Assembly: GCA_002842095.1 (NCBI GenBank)
Contig: PHCB01000006.1
Span: 270,044-334,043 of the forward strand
Reading direction: 5' to 3'
Origin: a candidate division BRC1 bacterium HGW-BRC1-1
Lineage (GTDB): Bacteria; Sumerlaeota; Sumerlaeia; Sumerlaeales; Sumerlaeaceae
DNA: 64,000 bases
The position numbers and the translations under genes were made by a program. Shown piece by piece: positions 18,894 through 30,369 of this stretch (within the stretch, counting starts at the first letter, position 1; each line of letters starts with the position of its first letter). The notes beneath the pieces were generated by a model, which saw nothing but the letters and a program-made list of their open reading frames with translations, made no database searches and was not told where the DNA came from.

Positions 18894-19742
18894 TTATCCC
18901 TCGTCACCCTCGCCGCCGCCCGGCGTGCCGTCGTTCACTTTGTCGCCTTTGAAATACTTCAGGCGCCAGACTGCCAGCACCGCCACGATCCCGATCATGC
19001 CCACCACGAACGGATATCCGTATTGCGGCTGGTTATAGTCCATAAGGTCATACACCCGCCCGATGAGCAGCGAGATGCGCGCCAGCACGATGCTGCCATA
19101 GGTGGCGCCAAACGTGATCATCACAAACCAGATGCCCACCGTTCCCAGCGCATTCGTCGCCTTGCTGCGCTCGCGTGAAAAGAAGAAGTACGTCAAAACG
19201 CTGATCACACCCACGACCAGAACCAGATGGTTCAACGTAGACGGCTGCGAGGCCTGCTGCCCAAGTGAAGGGAGAAGCGGCAACAGTTCGTAAGGCGCGT
19301 AATTAGAGCGCCCAAACAGCGGTACCATGGTGCCGGCAATCTGGTCGGCCAGGTTCGCCTCGGCGTAGCCCAGCAGGTTCAACCCCGCAAAGGCTCCCAC
19401 CACGAGCGCCATGGGCCAGCGACTGATCCAACTCACCTTGGGAATGAGCCGCGCCAGCACCAGCAAACCCAACACCAGCGCACCCCAACGCCACTGCATT
19501 TGCCAGCCGGCACCATCCCCCGCATTGATTTTATGAACACCGGTGAAGAGGTGCTGCACGAGGTTCGGAAAGATGGTATTGCGGAACGCCAGATAAAAAG
19601 TATAGCCCGCCGCCACACCCACATAAAGATGCTCGGCCGCTTTGTAAAAAGGGTTGTCGCGATACAGAAAACTATAAATGGCGAGCGTGAAAATGACCGT
19701 CAGCCACACTCCGGCCAGATCCACCAACCATGCGGTATCCAC
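18894..19742 (-). CDS. Operon gene 7: multi-pass membrane protein, unknown
   Basis: A 282-residue protein with about seven membrane helices and a Gly/Glu/Asp-rich C-terminal tail, not a family I can name. It starts at GTG (19742); the ribosome binding site AGGAGGT is formed by the last codons (Arg-Arg-stop) of the preceding gene, which is strong evidence that the two are translated together. The N-terminal helix lies at about residues 8-28 and is followed by FYKAAEHLYVGVAAGYTFY. The helix pattern with conserved-looking polar residues in the membrane (EHLYVG, ATYGSIVLAR) suggests a channel or scaffold rather than an enzyme. It is the last gene of the operon that begins at 25631. Confidence 0.8.
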   Translation of the reverse strand: MDTAWLVDLAGVWLTVIFTLAIYSFLYRDNPFYKAAEHLYVGVAAGYTFYLAFRNTIFPNLVQHLFTGVHKINAGDGAGWQMQWRWGALVLGLLVLARLIPKVSWISRWPMALVVGAFAGLNLLGYAEANLADQIAGTMVPLFGRSNYAPYELLPLLPSLGQQASQPSTLNHLVLVVGVISVLTYFFFSRERSKATNALGTVGIWFVMITFGATYGSIVLARISLLIGRVYDLMDYNQPQYGYPFVVGMIGIVAVLAVWRLKYFKGDKVNDGTPGGGEGDEG

Positions 19743-19748
19743 GGTGCG

Positions 19749-20621
19749 CTACCTCCTCGCCATCATGCGCAGCGAAAACTGCGCGAGATTGCCCAGCAGG
19801 ACCAGCAGCACTATGAGCACGTGAATGGCGCTCTGCACATTCATACCCTTGGTGGCACGACCAGGGGTGTTGGCCATTTTTTCATATTCCGCCGCGCCGG
19901 CCAGTCCGCCCAGAAACCCCTGCAGGTTGCCAGACTGATAATACGGATAAAGCTGTGGTGAAATAACCGCCGTAACACCGGCAACCATGGTCACACGGTA
20001 GCGGCTCTGGGCCTGCTGCACATATTCCACAGCCCCGGGATCGCCCACGCCAATGGTTATGAGCAGCTTAACATCATTGTAATTATCCCAACCCTGCATG
20101 ATGGGCAGGCTCGCCGTGGGGCGTCCGCTGTAATCGGTGGGGAAAGTCCGCTTAAAGGAAGCGCCAAGACTGGCAATGGCCACGCGGTCGCCAGCCTTGA
20201 AGCCGAGGTTAACGTAATCCACACCGCGCTCGCGTTTGATGCCTTCCTCAGCCAGTTCAGCAACTACAATGTTAAAACCTTTTTCGATGGTGGGGGGTCC
20301 ATCCGCCCACAAACTGCTGCAAACCACGCGGGCACCGCGCCGCATGAGATCGCGCAAAATACACAAATGCTGCGGCCAAAGTTCCGCCGCCGAGCTGGGG
20401 CCATAATCGATGGAGAAATGCACCACATCACCCGGCTGCACCGAGTTGATGGTTTTATACATCCCCTCCGCCTGGGGTGACGGCTGGATGGGCAGATTGA
20501 AGTCCAGCATCATGAAGATGACCGTCAGAATGGCCACGGCGGAGAAAATCCAACGGCGATCGAGAGCGACAAACATCGTCAGAAATTTTTGCATTCGGGA
20601 TGTGGGTTCTTGATTTATCAT
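19749..20621 (-). CDS. Operon gene 6: two-helix anchored protein with alpha/beta domain, unknown
   Basis: A 290-residue protein anchored by helices at about residues 24-41 and 265-283. The 220 residues between them form an alpha/beta domain with strand-like segments GDVVHFSIDYGP, GARVVCSSLW, VDYVNLGF, DRVAIASLG, VKLLITIGVGDPGAVEYVQQAQSRYRVTMVAGVTAVISPQ. The topology would place this domain outside the cytoplasm if the first helix is an uncleaved signal anchor. I do not recognise the family. The arrangement, a soluble domain between two terminal helices, parallels the DUF6754-like protein two genes earlier. Only one base separates its start from the stop of operon gene 5. Confidence 0.8.
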   Translation of the reverse strand: MINQEPTSRMQKFLTMFVALDRRWIFSAVAILTVIFMMLDFNLPIQPSPQAEGMYKTINSVQPGDVVHFSIDYGPSSAAELWPQHLCILRDLMRRGARVVCSSLWADGPPTIEKGFNIVVAELAEEGIKRERGVDYVNLGFKAGDRVAIASLGASFKRTFPTDYSGRPTASLPIMQGWDNYNDVKLLITIGVGDPGAVEYVQQAQSRYRVTMVAGVTAVISPQLYPYYQSGNLQGFLGGLAGAAEYEKMANTPGRATKGMNVQSAIHVLIVLLVLLGNLAQFSLRMMARR

Positions 20622-20622
20622 G

Positions 20623-21381
20623 TCATCCCTTAAGGTACGGCCTTTCGATGCCGAAGATCACACGCAGGCCCGTCGCGATCATGCCAATAGCCGCGCCCAT
20701 CTGAATGGCACGTTGTCCCGCCGCATTGGGCCAGGTCATCAGCCAGTCCTGGATCCACACCAGTGGCCGCCAGATTGTCCCGTCGCTCAGGTCCACCTGC
20801 AACAACCCGCCCACGGGCACGCGCCCGATCATCACCAGCACCGCGGCCACCAGCAGCAGCGTGGCGTGGAGGTTCTTCGCCCGGAAAGCGCGAAAGGCCG
20901 CCGACGCCACATAGAATGCCAGCAACGAATACATGGTGGCCGACAACGGGGTATAAATACGTGTAAAAGCGAAATTAAAAATATTGGTGGCGGCGCGTGC
21001 TTGAGCCTCGCCACTGGCAGCCACAGCCGCAGCCACCGCCGCCGGAGCCGCACCCGAGGCTTCCAGCGCGGTAAGCGCCGAAAGCGCTTCTTCAGCGCGC
21101 ATGTCCAGGTGCCACTGGAATCCCCCCACCGACATCATGAAGACCATACCAAACAGCAGGATGGCCTTGTACGGCCAGTCAGTTTTTCGTTCCACCACGG
21201 CCTTAAGGTTAATCTTGGCCAGGTTCAGCACGCCGAGGATAATGGCGAATGCGAGCGTGATGACGCCCCACTGGACTAATTCGTCGGCCACGGCGGAAAC
21301 CCATGGTGTAACCACGAAAAATTTAAGGATCATAAAGATGCCGACGAAGGCCGTGATGAAGATAGGGACGCGGGTTTTCAT
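20623..21381 (-). CDS. Operon gene 5: multi-pass membrane protein, unknown
   Basis: A 252-residue membrane protein with helices at about residues 5-27, 36-55, 70-90, 148-172, 177-195 and 222-243. A long Ala-rich hydrophilic segment (about 95-140) lies between the third and fourth helix, probably on one side of the membrane. No known motif. It lies 46 bases after the DUF6754-like gene and one base before operon gene 6, which places it within the operon. Confidence 0.8.
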   Translation of the reverse strand: MKTRVPIFITAFVGIFMILKFFVVTPWVSAVADELVQWGVITLAFAIILGVLNLAKINLKAVVERKTDWPYKAILLFGMVFMMSVGGFQWHLDMRAEEALSALTALEASGAAPAAVAAAVAASGEAQARAATNIFNFAFTRIYTPLSATMYSLLAFYVASAAFRAFRAKNLHATLLLVAAVLVMIGRVPVGGLLQVDLSDGTIWRPLVWIQDWLMTWPNAAGQRAIQMGAAIGMIATGLRVIFGIERPYLKG

Positions 21382-21427
21382 GCCTTACGCCGGGCCTTTT
21401 CACCGCTCAGGGCGAGGGAATGATGCA

Positions 21428-22444
21428 TCACAGTATCTCCTTCAACAGGCGCACAAATTCTTCGAGATGCAGCGACCACTCGCTGCCCGCCGGCAACGAC
21501 GCAGAGATGGTAATCGCCACCACGCCAATCAGCATGACCGGCATGATAACCAGTTTCAGCCAGTCGGCGGCCTTCACGCTGGCCAGCACAGGCGGCTCTT
21601 TGCTCAGGTAGGCGCTGGCGGCGTAGAACTCCTCGCCGATAAGCGTGTAATCGCACGCCGCCACGAAGAAGGGCAACTGGCTCACGTTGGCTGTGCCCGC
21701 CACCTGAATGGCACCGCTCACAAACCCGGTCTCGGCCAGGATGAGCGACTCGCTGTAAAAGCAGCCCTGATAGATGCACGACGCCGGGCGCTCGCGCAGC
21801 ATGATGCCGTTCACCCCCGCCGTGAAAGCGAACTGTTCGTCGCTGAGATAACGCATATTATTCGGGATGTAGTTTTCAGGACGCCCCGCAGCCAGCGAGG
21901 CCGCCTTCACGACTTCCTCGCAGATCGTCAGCACCACCGAACGGCGCGTTGCCACGATGACCGGCGTGTCGTATTCCGCAGCGATATACGCCACATGGGC
22001 AAGGATGTTGATGCCCGCCAGAGTCTGGATGTCATCGATGTCATTAATGCCGGGAATGAACAGAACCGGTCGGCCCATTTCCGTGGCGCGACCAATGGCC
22101 TCTTCGATGGCGTTAATGCCCGGCAGGCGTCGCAGTTCCACCTCGCCGCCCTTGCGGACCCGGCGATTCAGAACGAAAAAGAAGATGACGAAAAAGATGA
22201 GGAGCACGAAAACCGGCAACTTCACGACGTTGAAATCTTCGAGCAACCGGTAGGCGCTGCCAACCGTAGCCGACGTGATCCCGTCACTCAGTTGGAGATC
22301 GGGAAGCACTTCGCCGAGCCTGCTCGCCAGAACCCGCGTGGTTTCATCCGCAGCGAACGCGGGTGTCGCACCCGCAAATATTGCCGCGCCAGCCAGAGCC
22401 AGACGCGCGGCACGCGATTGGAGGAATGTCAGGGCGCGATTCAT
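21428..22444 (-). CDS. Operon gene 4: DUF6754-like membrane protein
   Basis: A 338-residue protein with a cleavable signal peptide (residues 1-31, ending AFA), a membrane helix at about 74-92 and another at about 297-317. Between the helices lies an alpha/beta domain with LPGINAIEEAIGRATEMGRP, FIPGINDIDDIQTLAGI, DTPVIVATRR, AETGFVSGAIQVAGTANVSQ and PFFVAACDYTLIGEEFYAASAYL. I believe this is the DUF6754 family, from memory of its Gly-rich GRP.LF.PG segment, but cannot verify it. Function unknown. Its ATG overlaps the stop of operon gene 3 by four bases (ATGA), a sign of translational coupling. Confidence 0.75.
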   Translation of the reverse strand: MNRALTFLQSRAARLALAGAAIFAGATPAFAADETTRVLASRLGEVLPDLQLSDGITSATVGSAYRLLEDFNVVKLPVFVLLIFFVIFFFVLNRRVRKGGEVELRRLPGINAIEEAIGRATEMGRPVLFIPGINDIDDIQTLAGINILAHVAYIAAEYDTPVIVATRRSVVLTICEEVVKAASLAAGRPENYIPNNMRYLSDEQFAFTAGVNGIMLRERPASCIYQGCFYSESLILAETGFVSGAIQVAGTANVSQLPFFVAACDYTLIGEEFYAASAYLSKEPPVLASVKAADWLKLVIMPVMLIGVVAITISASLPAGSEWSLHLEEFVRLLKEIL

Positions 22445-23559
22445 TCTTCGATCAACTCCACGTTTGCCCGGGGCAGCGTGTGCTGCGTTCCACCGGGAAG
22501 TTCCACTGTCATAACGCGTACCACCGCACCGCTTTCGATGGTCACCGGATCGCTGGGCAAATCCGTGATGCGGGCGATCTGCCCGAAGTGCGGCTGGCGG
22601 ATGATGCGCACCCGCGCGCCGATGGCCGTGGCCGTTCCCTGGACCGGTTGGGCCGACGAAGCCGGCACATCACTGCTCACGATAATCTCGGGACGGATAA
22701 CACCCGCGCGGATTTGCGTCGCGCCGTTGATGCTCGCGGTGCGCCCGTCAAGTTTTCCAAGCAGTTCGAAAGTGCGTGCCGCCATGGTCAGATCGCCGAA
22801 GCCTTCCGTCATGATGAGCGACGTGCCGATGTTCTCGCCGCCCGTGATGGCAATGCCGAGATCGTAACCAAGAATCGCGCCGAGATCGCTATCGTCGAAA
22901 CTGCCCACGACCAGCCCCACCGCGCCCACTTCTTCGCAGCGGCGATAAGCCGCGAGATCCGCGCAGCGGCCACCCACAACCACCATGCCCGCGCACGACT
23001 CGTCAATTTCCTCGGCCCGCAATTTGTGGTCGGGATCGCGCGCAATCACACGAATGATGCCCTGCTTTTCGCCACCCACACCGATGATCCCCTGAATGAA
23101 GGTTCCCACGGTGGAGATGTCGACACCCTCCGCCTCAATGACCTCGGTCACCTCGCCGCTGATATAGGCGAACACTTCCAGCGGCTGCGGCGGTTCGCGG
23201 AGCAACACCTGCCCCGTCACCTTCGAAATCGTTTCAAGCATGCAATCACATGGCGCCGACACATGGCTGCGGAACAGACCAAACAGCCCGACGTTCTCGG
23301 CAATCGTATCACCGCGCGAAACCTTATGCCCGACCTGCACCTTCATGCGATCGGCAACATCGGCGGGCTCGATTCCCAGATGATGCGCGACATTCACAAG
23401 TTGCACGTTACCCGGCAGTTCGGTGCGCGCCACAACCTGCTTCGCGTCCACCTTATCGCCGAGGGCCACCTTCACCTCGCCCCGTATTGGCAGCAGACGC
23501 CGTTTCACCACCAGCGTGCGCTCGGAAACCACCAGACCCGGCGTATAAGCATGCGCCAT
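22441..23559 (-). CDS. Operon gene 3: hybrid-barrel plus KOW-like protein, unknown
   Basis: A 372-residue soluble protein. The first 130 residues contain two turns typical of lipoyl/barrel-sandwich folds, VALGDKVDAKQVVARTELPG and VGHKVSRGDTIAEN, reminiscent of the RnfC N-terminus or RNA polymerase hybrid domains. The middle (about 165-300) is alpha/beta with CAGMVVVGGRCADLAAYRRC, EEVGAVGLVVGSFDDSDL and GYDLGIAITGGENIGTSLI. The C-terminal 60 residues (GARVRIIRQPHFGQIARI, LPRANVELIEE) look like a KOW/SH3-like barrel. No lipoylation lysine or enzyme motif is clear. Its ATG overlaps the stop of the MutL-like gene by one base (TGATG). Confidence 0.75.
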   Translation of the reverse strand: MAHAYTPGLVVSERTLVVKRRLLPIRGEVKVALGDKVDAKQVVARTELPGNVQLVNVAHHLGIEPADVADRMKVQVGHKVSRGDTIAENVGLFGLFRSHVSAPCDCMLETISKVTGQVLLREPPQPLEVFAYISGEVTEVIEAEGVDISTVGTFIQGIIGVGGEKQGIIRVIARDPDHKLRAEEIDESCAGMVVVGGRCADLAAYRRCEEVGAVGLVVGSFDDSDLGAILGYDLGIAITGGENIGTSLIMTEGFGDLTMAARTFELLGKLDGRTASINGATQIRAGVIRPEIIVSSDVPASSAQPVQGTATAIGARVRIIRQPHFGQIARITDLPSDPVTIESGAVVRVMTVELPGGTQHTLPRANVELIEE

Positions 23560-25341
23560 CAGTGGCCCTCCCCGCCCGCGGCAACGCCCGCGTGCGCCGG
23601 ATGCGATGCTTCATAATCGGTGAGCGAACGGGACCAATCAGCCAGACGCATGCGCCGCATATGGGGATCGTCGTCGAATTGCAACGGACGCCCACGGCCA
23701 TCGAAAATGATGCCAACTTTGCCGCCCGTCAGTGTGGCCTCGCGGGGCTTGCCCGGGCCTTCGCCCACATCGAGACCGCGAGCCGGCCGCAGCGTCACTT
23801 GTGCAGTTTCACCCTCGGCCAACGGGAAACATTTTATCTCGCCGCCCATCAACTTCACCTCCAGCGAAGTGCCGTCGGGCTTTTTCAAAACCGCCGTCAA
23901 TAGTTCTGCGCCTCTGCGCGTCTTTCCTGCCGGAGCAATCACTGGACCCAGCGGCACAAGGCAGTCGCGCCAGAACACTTCCATGGCGGCCTCCGGAGCG
24001 CGCTCGCTCAACACACCGAGATGCGGCATCATGAAGATGCTGTCCACGGCAAGCTGCGTGACGCCCGTCGGTTGGAACGCGTCCACCATCATCAGCGCCG
24101 CCTGCTCGCGCCGGGGCGCGTGGCTCAGTACGCCGCCGCTGCCGATGATCAGGTCGAGATCCATCATGTTCACCAGCGTGTCGCCGCTGCCGCTCTGGGC
24201 AAACGCATCGGCCACGGTGCGGCGTCGCTGCACGCCCTTCAGGCTCGTGGCGAATTGCGCATGTTGCTCCAGCGCCAGACGCAACGCCTCGCGGCACAAC
24301 GCCTGCTCGATGATCAAATCTTCCAGCAAATGCGGGATCGTGGTCGGGCGGATGATCTTGTTCTTGATCCGGTTGCGCACATCATCCGCCGACAGCTCCG
24401 TCGTCAGCCAACGCTCCACATTGGGGAACCCGGCACTCGTCAGCACGTTGCCCACGCTGTAGCTCATGCCCAGGTTTGCGCTCACGGTGCGGTTGAACTG
24501 CCCGGCAAACACGCTGAAAACGTCCGTTGTGGACGATTTGCACCAGCTTGCCCACCGCGCCCGGCGTGGGCATGATGGGGATGTGGGTCATCGCCTTCAA
24601 CTTATCGTAGCCCGGCGCCTGCTGCATCACGTGCTCCATGAAAAGGTCGTGAATCGCATCACGGGCGGGGCCGAGATTTTCCGACTCCAGCACCGGCCGC
24701 ACGTTCGCTACTTCGTGAATGCTGACACAATCCTTCAGAATGGCGCGCACTTCATCCGCCGCCGCGTGATTGCCGGCGTACACCAGCGGCAACTTGTAAC
24801 CCACCCCAAGGCGCGCCGTGGGACGCGCCGCGCCCACCAGTTCGGCCATTTTCGCCACATGCGAAATCGTGCCGCCGTCGATGCCGCCCGACAGTAGGAT
24901 CATGTCCGGGCGCAACTGCCGGATACGCTGGATCTGCTGATACGGCAACCGGCGGTCGTTGCTGCAAATCGTGTCCATCACGATGGCGCCGGCCCCCAGC
25001 GCGGCACGCTCGGCGCTCTCCGCCGTCATGCTCTTCACCACGCCCATCACCAGCATCTGCAAGCCGCCGCCCGCGCTGGATGTGCTCACATAAATATCCA
25101 CGCCATCATTGCCCGAGGCCGGATGGATCAAATCGTTCTTTTCATCCAGAAGACGACGCCCCGTGACCTCTTCCAACTCGCGCACAGCATTGCGCACACC
25201 CACGGTCACGTCGTCAAACGGCGCTTCCACGGTGGTCGGTGCTTCGCCACGCGCAACCAAGCGATAGCCGTCGTCGGTGCGGCCTATCAGGATCGCCTTC
25301 GTCGTGGTGCTGCCGCAGTCGGTGGCCAGGATAAAATTCAG
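23559..25341 (-). pseudogene. Operon gene 2: MutL-like ASKHA ATPase, split by frameshift
   Basis: The product belongs to the MutL family (named for a glutamate-mutase chaperone/reactivase) of ASKHA ATPases. The first part (25341 to about 24545) has the phosphate-1 motif DCGSTTTK, ILLSGGIDGGTISH and PIMPTPGAVGKLVQ; the second part (about 24540 to 23559), in another frame, has STTDVFSVFAGQFNRTVSAN, IIGSGGVLSHAP and a long C-terminal domain. The junction is near 24525-24550. Family members usually read DIGGATTDVFSV here, so a piece before TTD seems to be missing as well as the frame lost. The start appears to be CTG at 25341 in a CTGA overlap with the previous stop, since no ATG, GTG or TTG lies in front of the phosphate-1 motif. 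No glutamate mutase genes are nearby. Sequencing error is the main alternative to a real mutation. Confidence 0.75.
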
Positions 25342-25631
25342 CTCGGTGATGGCGCCTCTCCCCCCGCCTCGATCTTGTCGAGCAACACGCCCAGCGTTTC
25401 ACGATGTTCCAACGCCTCGGCGAACATATCCCAACTTTTCGGTTCGATGAAAAGCGACACCATGGGGCCCAAACCATGCATAAGCTGGCTCGCCACAAAG
25501 TTCAACGGTCTCATGCTTTCAAGAAACATGACGGCCGGCGCAGCCAGCTCCCGCTTACATATAGCCGAAGCTATATCGGTAAGCAGCGCATCCTGCTGCG
25601 GCGTGAGATTATGGCTTTGCGCGTTTCCCAT
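25338..25631 (-). CDS. Operon gene 1: small helical protein preceding the MutL-like gene
   Basis: A 97-residue protein, mostly helical by appearance, with no signal peptide or membrane helix (LTPQQDALLTDIASAICKRE, PAVMFLESMRPLNFVASQ, WDMFAEALEHRETLGVLLDK). I do not recognise the family. Its position as the first gene, overlapping the MutL-like gene by four bases, suggests it works with the ATPase, for example as a partner or regulator. The mention of a hydrophobic face (VASQLMHGLGPMVSLFI) hints at membrane or protein contact. It is a hypothetical protein. Confidence 0.75.
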   Translation of the reverse strand: MGNAQSHNLTPQQDALLTDIASAICKRELAAPAVMFLESMRPLNFVASQLMHGLGPMVSLFIEPKSWDMFAEALEHRETLGVLLDKIEAGGEAPSPS

Positions 25632-28524: not shown

Positions 28525-30369
28525 TTACTTTCCTTCGTAGCCCGCAGCTTGAAGGATCTGACGGGCCCTATCCTGAAATGGTGCCACTCCCGCCGAAAGA
28601 TACTGCATCTCATCGGGACCGGGCTGAATTTGTTTGGCTTGTTTGTACGTTGCGAGTTGCGGCGTCCATACAAAATCACGCGCAAAGAAAAAGCGTGTCA
28701 TCAACCAACGACCATTTTCCAACGCCAGCGGGGTTATATATTCTTCCTGTTTGCCATCGGGCCCGTCTACGCGGATGCGGGCCGCTCCCCATCCCTGGGG
28801 AACCGTGCGATAGCCCGGGCGACCCACCGAGTCGGGCATGTTGCGAGCCAGACCCTGCAGCGCCACCATTCGCATCTTCGCCGGATCAGTGTACACCTCG
28901 GCCGGCGTCAGCAGCGCCGCGATCCACTCGGCGTTGGCTTCGAACCACATGACGTCGTCCGTTGCCATCACCGTGCGCAACTCCGCCGGGGCCGAGAGGT
29001 CACCCTCGCGAACCTTTTTCATAAATGAGTCATAACGCTTCCACAAGTCATCCACCGACTGTGGCGGCAGCGCCAGCGGCTGAATGACCGGCGGTGGTGT
29101 ACCCATGGGCACCATCGCAGGATCGAGGTAATTCATTGGCGCGGGAGTGGCGGGAAGCGCTGAAAGAATTGCGGCCGTCGTGGTGGCCGGATCGACCATC
29201 GCCGCAGGTGTTACAATCGGTGTGGGAATCGGAGTCGGCACAGGCGTGGGGGTTGGTTGCTGGGACAAATCCACCAGCGTTCCGGGGGCTGCATTATCCA
29301 CCAGCGGATTCCCCGTCGCCGCCGCCCCGGCAGCACTCAGAAGTCCTGCGCCCGAGCGGTTTTCCGGATCCTCGCCCAGCATCGGGTCGAAGGGCACATA
29401 CTCAATACCCAGGGTCTGACACAACTGCTTCAACTGCACCTCATACGCCTGAGCCCCACCGCCATACCAGGCGGTGTCCTCGGCCGTCATGTAATTCGGA
29501 TCGCTCTCTTTGATGGGCCGTATTGAATCCATCATCACGGTACGCATGCCCAGCCAATTGCGAACCTTCCAGTTGGCCCCCTCGCGGGTCAGATGCACAA
29601 CCTGGCCGGAATCCATCTTTACCAGCGCATCATTGCCCGACGTTTTAGCTTCCGTAACATTACCCACAATGGGCTTGACCATGGCCGTGAGCGCCAGGCC
29701 CTTGCGCGCATGGGGCTGGTTGACAACCGTGGTCAATCCGGCCACATCGCCCCTGGCCAGCAGTCGCATAATAATCTCATACTGATCGTTAAACCACTGC
29801 AGATCCTTGTGGGAGGCGGTCGTGAGGATTTTCCCCATCCCCTCCTCCTCATTGGCGTTGCGCAGCTTGGTCAGTTGGGCATTGTAATAATTAACCGCCG
29901 CTTCCGGAGAAGCCATCGCCTCGGGCGGATCAGGCATATTCATGCTCCACGTGCCCTCGTATCCGCGATAGTAACCATGACTCTCCCGGAAACGATGACC
30001 CTCCGTGCGCTGCAAGTAAAACATAGGCAGCAGCCCGACTATGGCAAAAATCCAGATCAGCGGGACCTTGGACGTTTCCACATCGAAGGATTTCATGATG
30101 ACGAAAAACGCCGTAGCCGCGCCCACCGCCACGGCGATGAAGAAACCCGTGTTCATCAGCGGTTGCGAGGTATTGTCGGCAAATTTCAGCACCAGACCAT
30201 ACAGCCCACCGGCTACCGCGGCAACCAGAAAGCCCGACAGGAAATTGCTCGCCACAGGCATGTTGGCCCTGGCCAGACGTGAAACAATGGTGAAGAGCAC
30301 CCCCAGCAACAGCGTGGCCGCCACGAGAAATGCGGCGCTGATGACCAAGGTAACGAGCATGGGCGTCAC
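28525..30369 (-). CDS. Membrane protein with Pro-rich linker, unknown
   Basis: A 614-residue protein I do not recognise. It begins with four membrane helices (about residues 5-30, 42-62, 72-92 and 104-120). Then come a helical domain (about 150-330, with EAAVNYYNAQLTKLRNA), a linker with PTPTPVPTPIPTPIVTP around residue 375-400, and a second domain (about 440-610). The second half of each soluble domain contains similar-looking segments with DLQWFNDQYEIIMRLLARGD and DVMWFEANAEWIAALLTPAE, so the two domains may be related by duplication. The helix-rich N-terminus suggests a plasma-membrane anchor with the domains on one side. It is followed two bases later by a TPR protein gene. Confidence 0.8.
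   Translation of the reverse strand: MTPMLVTLVISAAFLVAATLLLGVLFTIVSRLARANMPVASNFLSGFLVAAVAGGLYGLVLKFADNTSQPLMNTGFFIAVAVGAATAFFVIMKSFDVETSKVPLIWIFAIVGLLPMFYLQRTEGHRFRESHGYYRGYEGTWSMNMPDPPEAMASPEAAVNYYNAQLTKLRNANEEEGMGKILTTASHKDLQWFNDQYEIIMRLLARGDVAGLTTVVNQPHARKGLALTAMVKPIVGNVTEAKTSGNDALVKMDSGQVVHLTREGANWKVRNWLGMRTVMMDSIRPIKESDPNYMTAEDTAWYGGGAQAYEVQLKQLCQTLGIEYVPFDPMLGEDPENRSGAGLLSAAGAAATGNPLVDNAAPGTLVDLSQQPTPTPVPTPIPTPIVTPAAMVDPATTTAAILSALPATPAPMNYLDPAMVPMGTPPPVIQPLALPPQSVDDLWKRYDSFMKKVREGDLSAPAELRTVMATDDVMWFEANAEWIAALLTPAEVYTDPAKMRMVALQGLARNMPDSVGRPGYRTVPQGWGAARIRVDGPDGKQEEYITPLALENGRWLMTRFFFARDFVWTPQLATYKQAKQIQPGPDEMQYLSAGVAPFQDRARQILQAAGYEGK

Follow-up and report, generated by a model that had tools for sequence, protein, structure and literature searches.

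The window, the 64,000-nucleotide stretch of DNA analysed here, belongs to a Candidatus Sumerlaeota genome, its nearest named loci being those of Sumerlaeota/Sumerlaeaceae MAGs. Open reading frames and profile scans place seven co-directional genes, designated A-M-B-C-D-E-F, on the minus strand between positions 18894 and 25631:

25338..25631, minus strand: A, a 97-aa helical protein of no known family
23559..25350, minus strand: M, a MutL-family (PF13941) ASKHA ATPase of the long form
24532..24533, minus strand: deletion junction in M, a 47-base gap relative to six relatives
22441..23559, minus strand: B, a 372-aa partner of M with weak barrel-sandwich and KOW-like matches
21428..22444, minus strand: C, a DUF6754 protein (PF20539)
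20623..21381, minus strand: D, a 252-aa multi-transmembrane (TM) protein of no known family
19749..20621, minus strand: E, a predicted TM-Rossmann-TM protein whose domain is predicted to be extracytoplasmic
18894..19742, minus strand: F, a 282-aa multi-TM protein of no known family

M and B overlap by one base (TGATG) and B and C by four (ATGA), and gaps of 46 bases, 1 base and 6 bases separate C from D, D from E and E from F. A first-pass annotation had described such a packed, single-strand array, with CTGA as a third junction; the strand, the other two overlaps and the gaps of 1-46 bases stand, and CTGA falls away, since the putative start codon of M is an ATC. Two members match named families above cut-off, M with PF13941 (E 5e-80 and 3e-34 for its two pieces) and C with PF20539 (E 3e-104; 348 bits against a cut-off of 27), which bears out the MutL-family and DUF6754 identities proposed from the sequence. 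A, B, D, E and F match no Pfam or NCBIfam family above cut-off. Hydrophobic segments are found in C, D, E and F, the same four that had been called membrane proteins. Further out on the upstream side, past what looks like a heavy-metal P-type ATPase gene, a 614-aa predicted membrane protein (28525-30369) is encoded, also without a Pfam or NCBIfam match above cut-off.

M is not a single open frame. The two halves of the gene lie in different frames, and alignment shows that the window lacks, at 24533|24532, 47 bases that are present at the same site in six of six Sumerlaeaceae relatives. This loss breaks the reading frame, and the missing bases encode a region ending in most of DIGGATTD, the second ATP-binding motif, which is conserved in the relatives. 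The same alignment rejects a single-base indel as the cause; a programmed frameshift is rejected because the relatives have a single open frame with the 47 extra bases. The loss is either a real mutation or an assembly error, and in this assembly M, the only system-type MutL gene found in the genome, is probably inactive. In the relatives M is ∼600 aa long and both ATP motifs, DCGSTTTK and DIGGATTD, are conserved. The motifs of a Chloroflexi M (L030:13572-15329) are degenerate (DVGAANTR and DIGASAAT), so this lineage may no longer have ATPase activity.

The start of M is also unusual. There is no ATG, GTG or TTG at this point, and an ATC at 25350-25348 aligns with the ATG of other families, in which ATG, and sometimes GTG or TTG, occupies the start region. 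ATC is found at this site, behind a GGGAG-like sequence, in all seven Sumerlaeaceae examined (the window and L031-L036), and five of the seven contain no usual start codon from the upstream stop to the first conserved motif. The simplest reading is that Sumerlaeaceae M genes use a conserved AUC start codon.

C consists of a signal-peptide-like N-terminus, a TM segment, a Rossmann-like domain and a second TM segment, and E, as had been suggested, follows a similar plan of TM segment, Rossmann-like domain and TM segment. Lysine and arginine are far more abundant after the first TM segment of C than before it (4.6 versus 0.9), which places the domain of C in the cytoplasm by prediction; the charge pattern of E is the opposite, so that its domain is predicted to lie outside. 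In many relatives of C an FN3 domain precedes the first TM segment, on the outside, and PDB profile searches with the C family recovered FN3 alone, in its N-terminal part. At L045, L144, L153, L161 and L186 the C protein is 909-966 aa long and begins with a long extension; the one at L045 measures ∼670 aa and has no Pfam match. Predicted models of C and E are both Rossmann/DHS-like with six strands, the best comparisons being Sir2 for C (Z 11.4) and MT0777 for E (Z 9.9), with CODH epsilon chains at Z about 9 for both, although values of 9-11 may reflect a common arrangement alone. Foldseek searches of the PDB with the two models returned nothing reliable, and sequence homology between C and E was rejected, hhalign finding nothing despite the likeness of the models. 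The likeness of C to Sir2 and other Rossmann/DHS-like proteins is one of general fold: C is membrane anchored, the Sir2 motifs GAGxS, QNxD and HG are absent from the window protein, and QNxD is present in none of 64 family members.

A few members of the B family weakly match the barrel-sandwich models RnfC_N, Biotin_lipoyl and NQRA_N. The window protein does not reach the Pfam cut-off for RnfC/NqrA (17.9 bits versus 25.6), and, in contrast to Rnf and Nqr systems, the other subunits of those complexes were not found beside B. PDB profile searches with B gave a weak KOW match and a lysozyme match that we judged spurious. D and F match no transporter family, Pfam family or solved structure, and the idea that the partners of M might be ordinary transporters drew no transporter family match. 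Profile scans detected no Fe-S, flavin or quinone-site family in any subunit. A defence system was rejected because no PADLOC-DB family matched any of eight pieces at E 0.01, and plasmid or phage carriage was likewise rejected for want of a match.

The cluster is conserved well beyond this genome. Those Sumerlaeaceae relatives that possess it keep A-M-B-C-D-E-F in synteny, and the cluster is found again in many other families, in most of which a homologue of A lies 5′ of M; the arrangement is far beyond chance. Six-frame profile searches of 123 loci define the layout elsewhere as H-A-M-B-(C-D-E-F)n, in which H, an eighth gene upstream of A, encodes a protein of ∼140 aa that has two TM segments, looks PH-like by eye and matches no named family above cut-off in the proteins scanned. 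The same searches revealed no H in Sumerlaeaceae loci, the window included. Among 389 genomes, each at least 90% complete, DUF6754 is present in 106 (27%) and B in 102, every one of them within the 106 and none among the 283 genomes without DUF6754. MutL is present in 112 genomes, including 102 of the 106; most of the ten genomes with MutL and no DUF6754 carry the short GlmL type. Fisher tests against DUF6754, with genomes counted without correction for kinship, give p = 7e-90 for B and 3e-76 for MutL. Of 40 Sumerlaeota genomes, 12 encode DUF6754, and MutL exceeds the cut-off in the same 12.

A single M-B pair often accompanies several paralogous CDEF cassettes, and the cassettes multiply without M-B. 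In the phylum that includes genome G048, DUF6754 occurs in 83 of 83 genomes at 2-6 copies each, mostly 3-6, and sampled members (G048, G062 and G137) have a single M and a single B; in this phylum the cassettes at tandem positions 1, 2 and 3 fall into largely separate paralogue groups. Several genomes also contain extra M-B fusions, each one frame of ∼1000 aa, that form a sister clade of M in the tree. The fusions at L209-L215 (for example L209:6295-9321) come on top of separate M and B genes wherever such genes were detected; the 123-locus search placed no CDEF beside them, and no recurrent neighbours were noticed. Stand-alone CDEF cassettes at L096, L108 and L109, all in one phylum, sit beside housekeeping genes, those at L108 and L109 near S-adenosylmethionine synthetase and that at L109 also near adenosylhomocysteinase and pantoate ligase.

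M shares the PF13941 fold family and its ATP motifs with the GlmL/MutL accessory protein (NF040745, TIGR01319) and with OR-4 (NF040744), and an obvious question is whether it is simply GlmL. We rejected this identification. M forms a clade separate from GlmL, and intact M proteins score 228-241 and 162-183 bits against NCBI curated cut-offs of 475 (NF040745) and 204 bits (TIGR01319), which a control MutL encoded beside GlmE passes at 589 and 443 bits. Glutamate mutase E (GlmE, PF06368) was absent from all 19 genomes searched, 18 of them with DUF6754, and the same search located it in other genomes adjoining short canonical MutL genes. This agrees with the early remark that M has no mutase partner, and it speaks against the proviso that MutL-type genes in such clusters might always adjoin B12-dependent mutases. 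M further differs from GlmL in length, ∼600 aa with a C-terminal extension as opposed to ∼450-475 aa, and in company, since it always occurs with B and CDEF and, in the genomes tested, without glutamate mutase.

Neighbour scans with Pfam, mostly of one locus per family, yielded a single standout, the glycine cleavage P-protein, which accounts for 19 of 84 upstream proteins on the same strand. In 17 of 75 loci (10 of 62 families), glycine cleavage (gcv) genes precede the system on the same strand, often across gaps of <60 bases, as compared with a chance expectation of about half a locus, an estimate that takes the loci to total about 1.35 Mb and assumes genome sizes near 3 Mb; the other 58 loci have no glycine cleavage gene nearby. 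Lipoate ligase is on the same strand in 11 loci and downstream in nine of them, and it makes up 5 of 82 downstream proteins, a number much like those of common TonB-receptor domains. Linkage extends to M proteins of as little as 54% identity; the best tree needs six changes of linkage, but the linkage may have a single origin. Glycine cleavage is encoded in 99 of the 106 genomes with DUF6754 versus 197 of the 283 others, counts that carry no correction for kinship or genome size. In the genome of the window the P-protein gene is on another contig, so the linkage is a feature of other lineages and not of this one. The first-pass annotation had missed the links to glycine cleavage and lipoate ligase, as well as H, the repeated CDEF cassettes next to one M-B pair, and the deletion and conserved ATC of M.

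The strict co-occurrence and synteny of these genes are best explained if they encode one conserved machine, and they fit the original suggestion of an ATPase that acts on a membrane complex of the other proteins. Co-occurrence, synteny, fusions, copy numbers, ATP motifs and predicted folds are what the sequences show; beyond these we infer the topology, contacts, ATP hydrolysis, transport or coupling activity and glycine/one-carbon role of an ATP-switched membrane machine, a reading to which we assign a probability of roughly 0.35. M would be the ATP-driven switch: by way of B it would act on the Rossmann-like domain of C in the cytoplasm and so drive or gate a membrane module in which the domain of E lies outside. 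The M-B pair would form a shared energising or regulatory unit and CDEF an exchangeable membrane unit, and the activity would most likely be transport or another membrane-coupled step serving lipoyl-dependent glycine/one-carbon metabolism. In the genome studied here M would be inactive if the 47-base deletion is real. Counting against this mechanism are the failure of D and F to match transporters, the 58 of 75 loci that lack gcv genes, a linkage that may have originated once, CDEF cassettes beside unrelated housekeeping genes, M-B fusions with no CDEF alongside, the degenerate motifs of the Chloroflexi M and the broken M of the window.

Several of the same observations can be read differently. 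The FN3 domains and long N-terminal extensions of C, the tandem, diversified cassettes and the majority of loci without glycine cleavage genes nearby would suit a structural or surface envelope complex, involved in assembly or anchoring, with M serving as a switch much as PilM/FtsA-like ASKHA proteins do, in which case the gcv linkage would be inherited gene order only. That the linkage is retained down to 54% MutL identity, always on the same strand and often within 60 bases, argues otherwise, as does the fact that pilus, S-layer and secretion families are not recurrent among the leading neighbour families, and we consider an envelope structure credible but doubtful. It is also conceivable that M-B has the chaperone or reactivase role proposed for GlmL and serves to repair or load a cofactor enzyme such as a lipoyl enzyme, with CDEF as its membrane-bound client. 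Homology of M to GlmL and OR-4, the glycine cleavage and lipoate ligase neighbours, and the weak matches of a few B-family members to Biotin_lipoyl/RnfC_N models would be expected of such a system; set against them are CDEF proteins in which no cofactor-enzyme motif was recognised, cassettes that multiply independently of M-B, and the missing mutase in the 19 genomes searched, and this explanation strikes us as unlikely.

The RnfC_N/NQRA_N resemblance of the B family, weak as it is, recalls a further alternative, in which a membrane enzyme that conserves energy, or an ion pump, would deal with the products or electrons of glycine cleavage. The linkage to glycine cleavage and the models of C and E, whose Rossmann/DHS-like fold class has nucleotide-binding proteins among its members, are compatible with such an activity, but the lack of any Fe-S, flavin or quinone-site family in the subunits, and Z values of 9-11 that could stem from common arrangement, make a pump of this kind quite improbable. 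Returning to the ATP-switched machine, a possible analogy is provided by ECF-type transporters, in which one shared ATPase unit serves several membrane modules, much as one M-B pair may serve several CDEF cassettes; the M-B/CDEF system differs in having no ABC ATPase and no sequence relation that we found. Only tentatively do we propose a new class of energised membrane system in many uncultured bacterial lineages, in which an ASKHA ATPase and its adaptor B might directly drive interchangeable CDEF modules that have a Rossmann domain on either side of the membrane, coupling transport or ion flow to lipoyl-dependent glycine/one-carbon metabolism.

Our searches of the open-licence literature found no mention of DUF6754 and, in keeping with the initial assessment, no described system of this composition. 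The system is real and conserved, and the literature searched does not describe it. C clearly belongs to a family of no known function that can now be placed within a defined multi-gene system, and the gcv linkage, together with the way M, B and CDEF almost perfectly co-occur, makes the function of that system testable. If an ASKHA ATPase does power a membrane module of several subunits, this would be a novel means of energising a membrane. In the proteins scanned, A, B, D, E, F and H match no named family above cut-off, yet the system is widespread, occurring in about a quarter of the sampled genomes, and it is present even in a genome of ∼0.9 Mb (G299).
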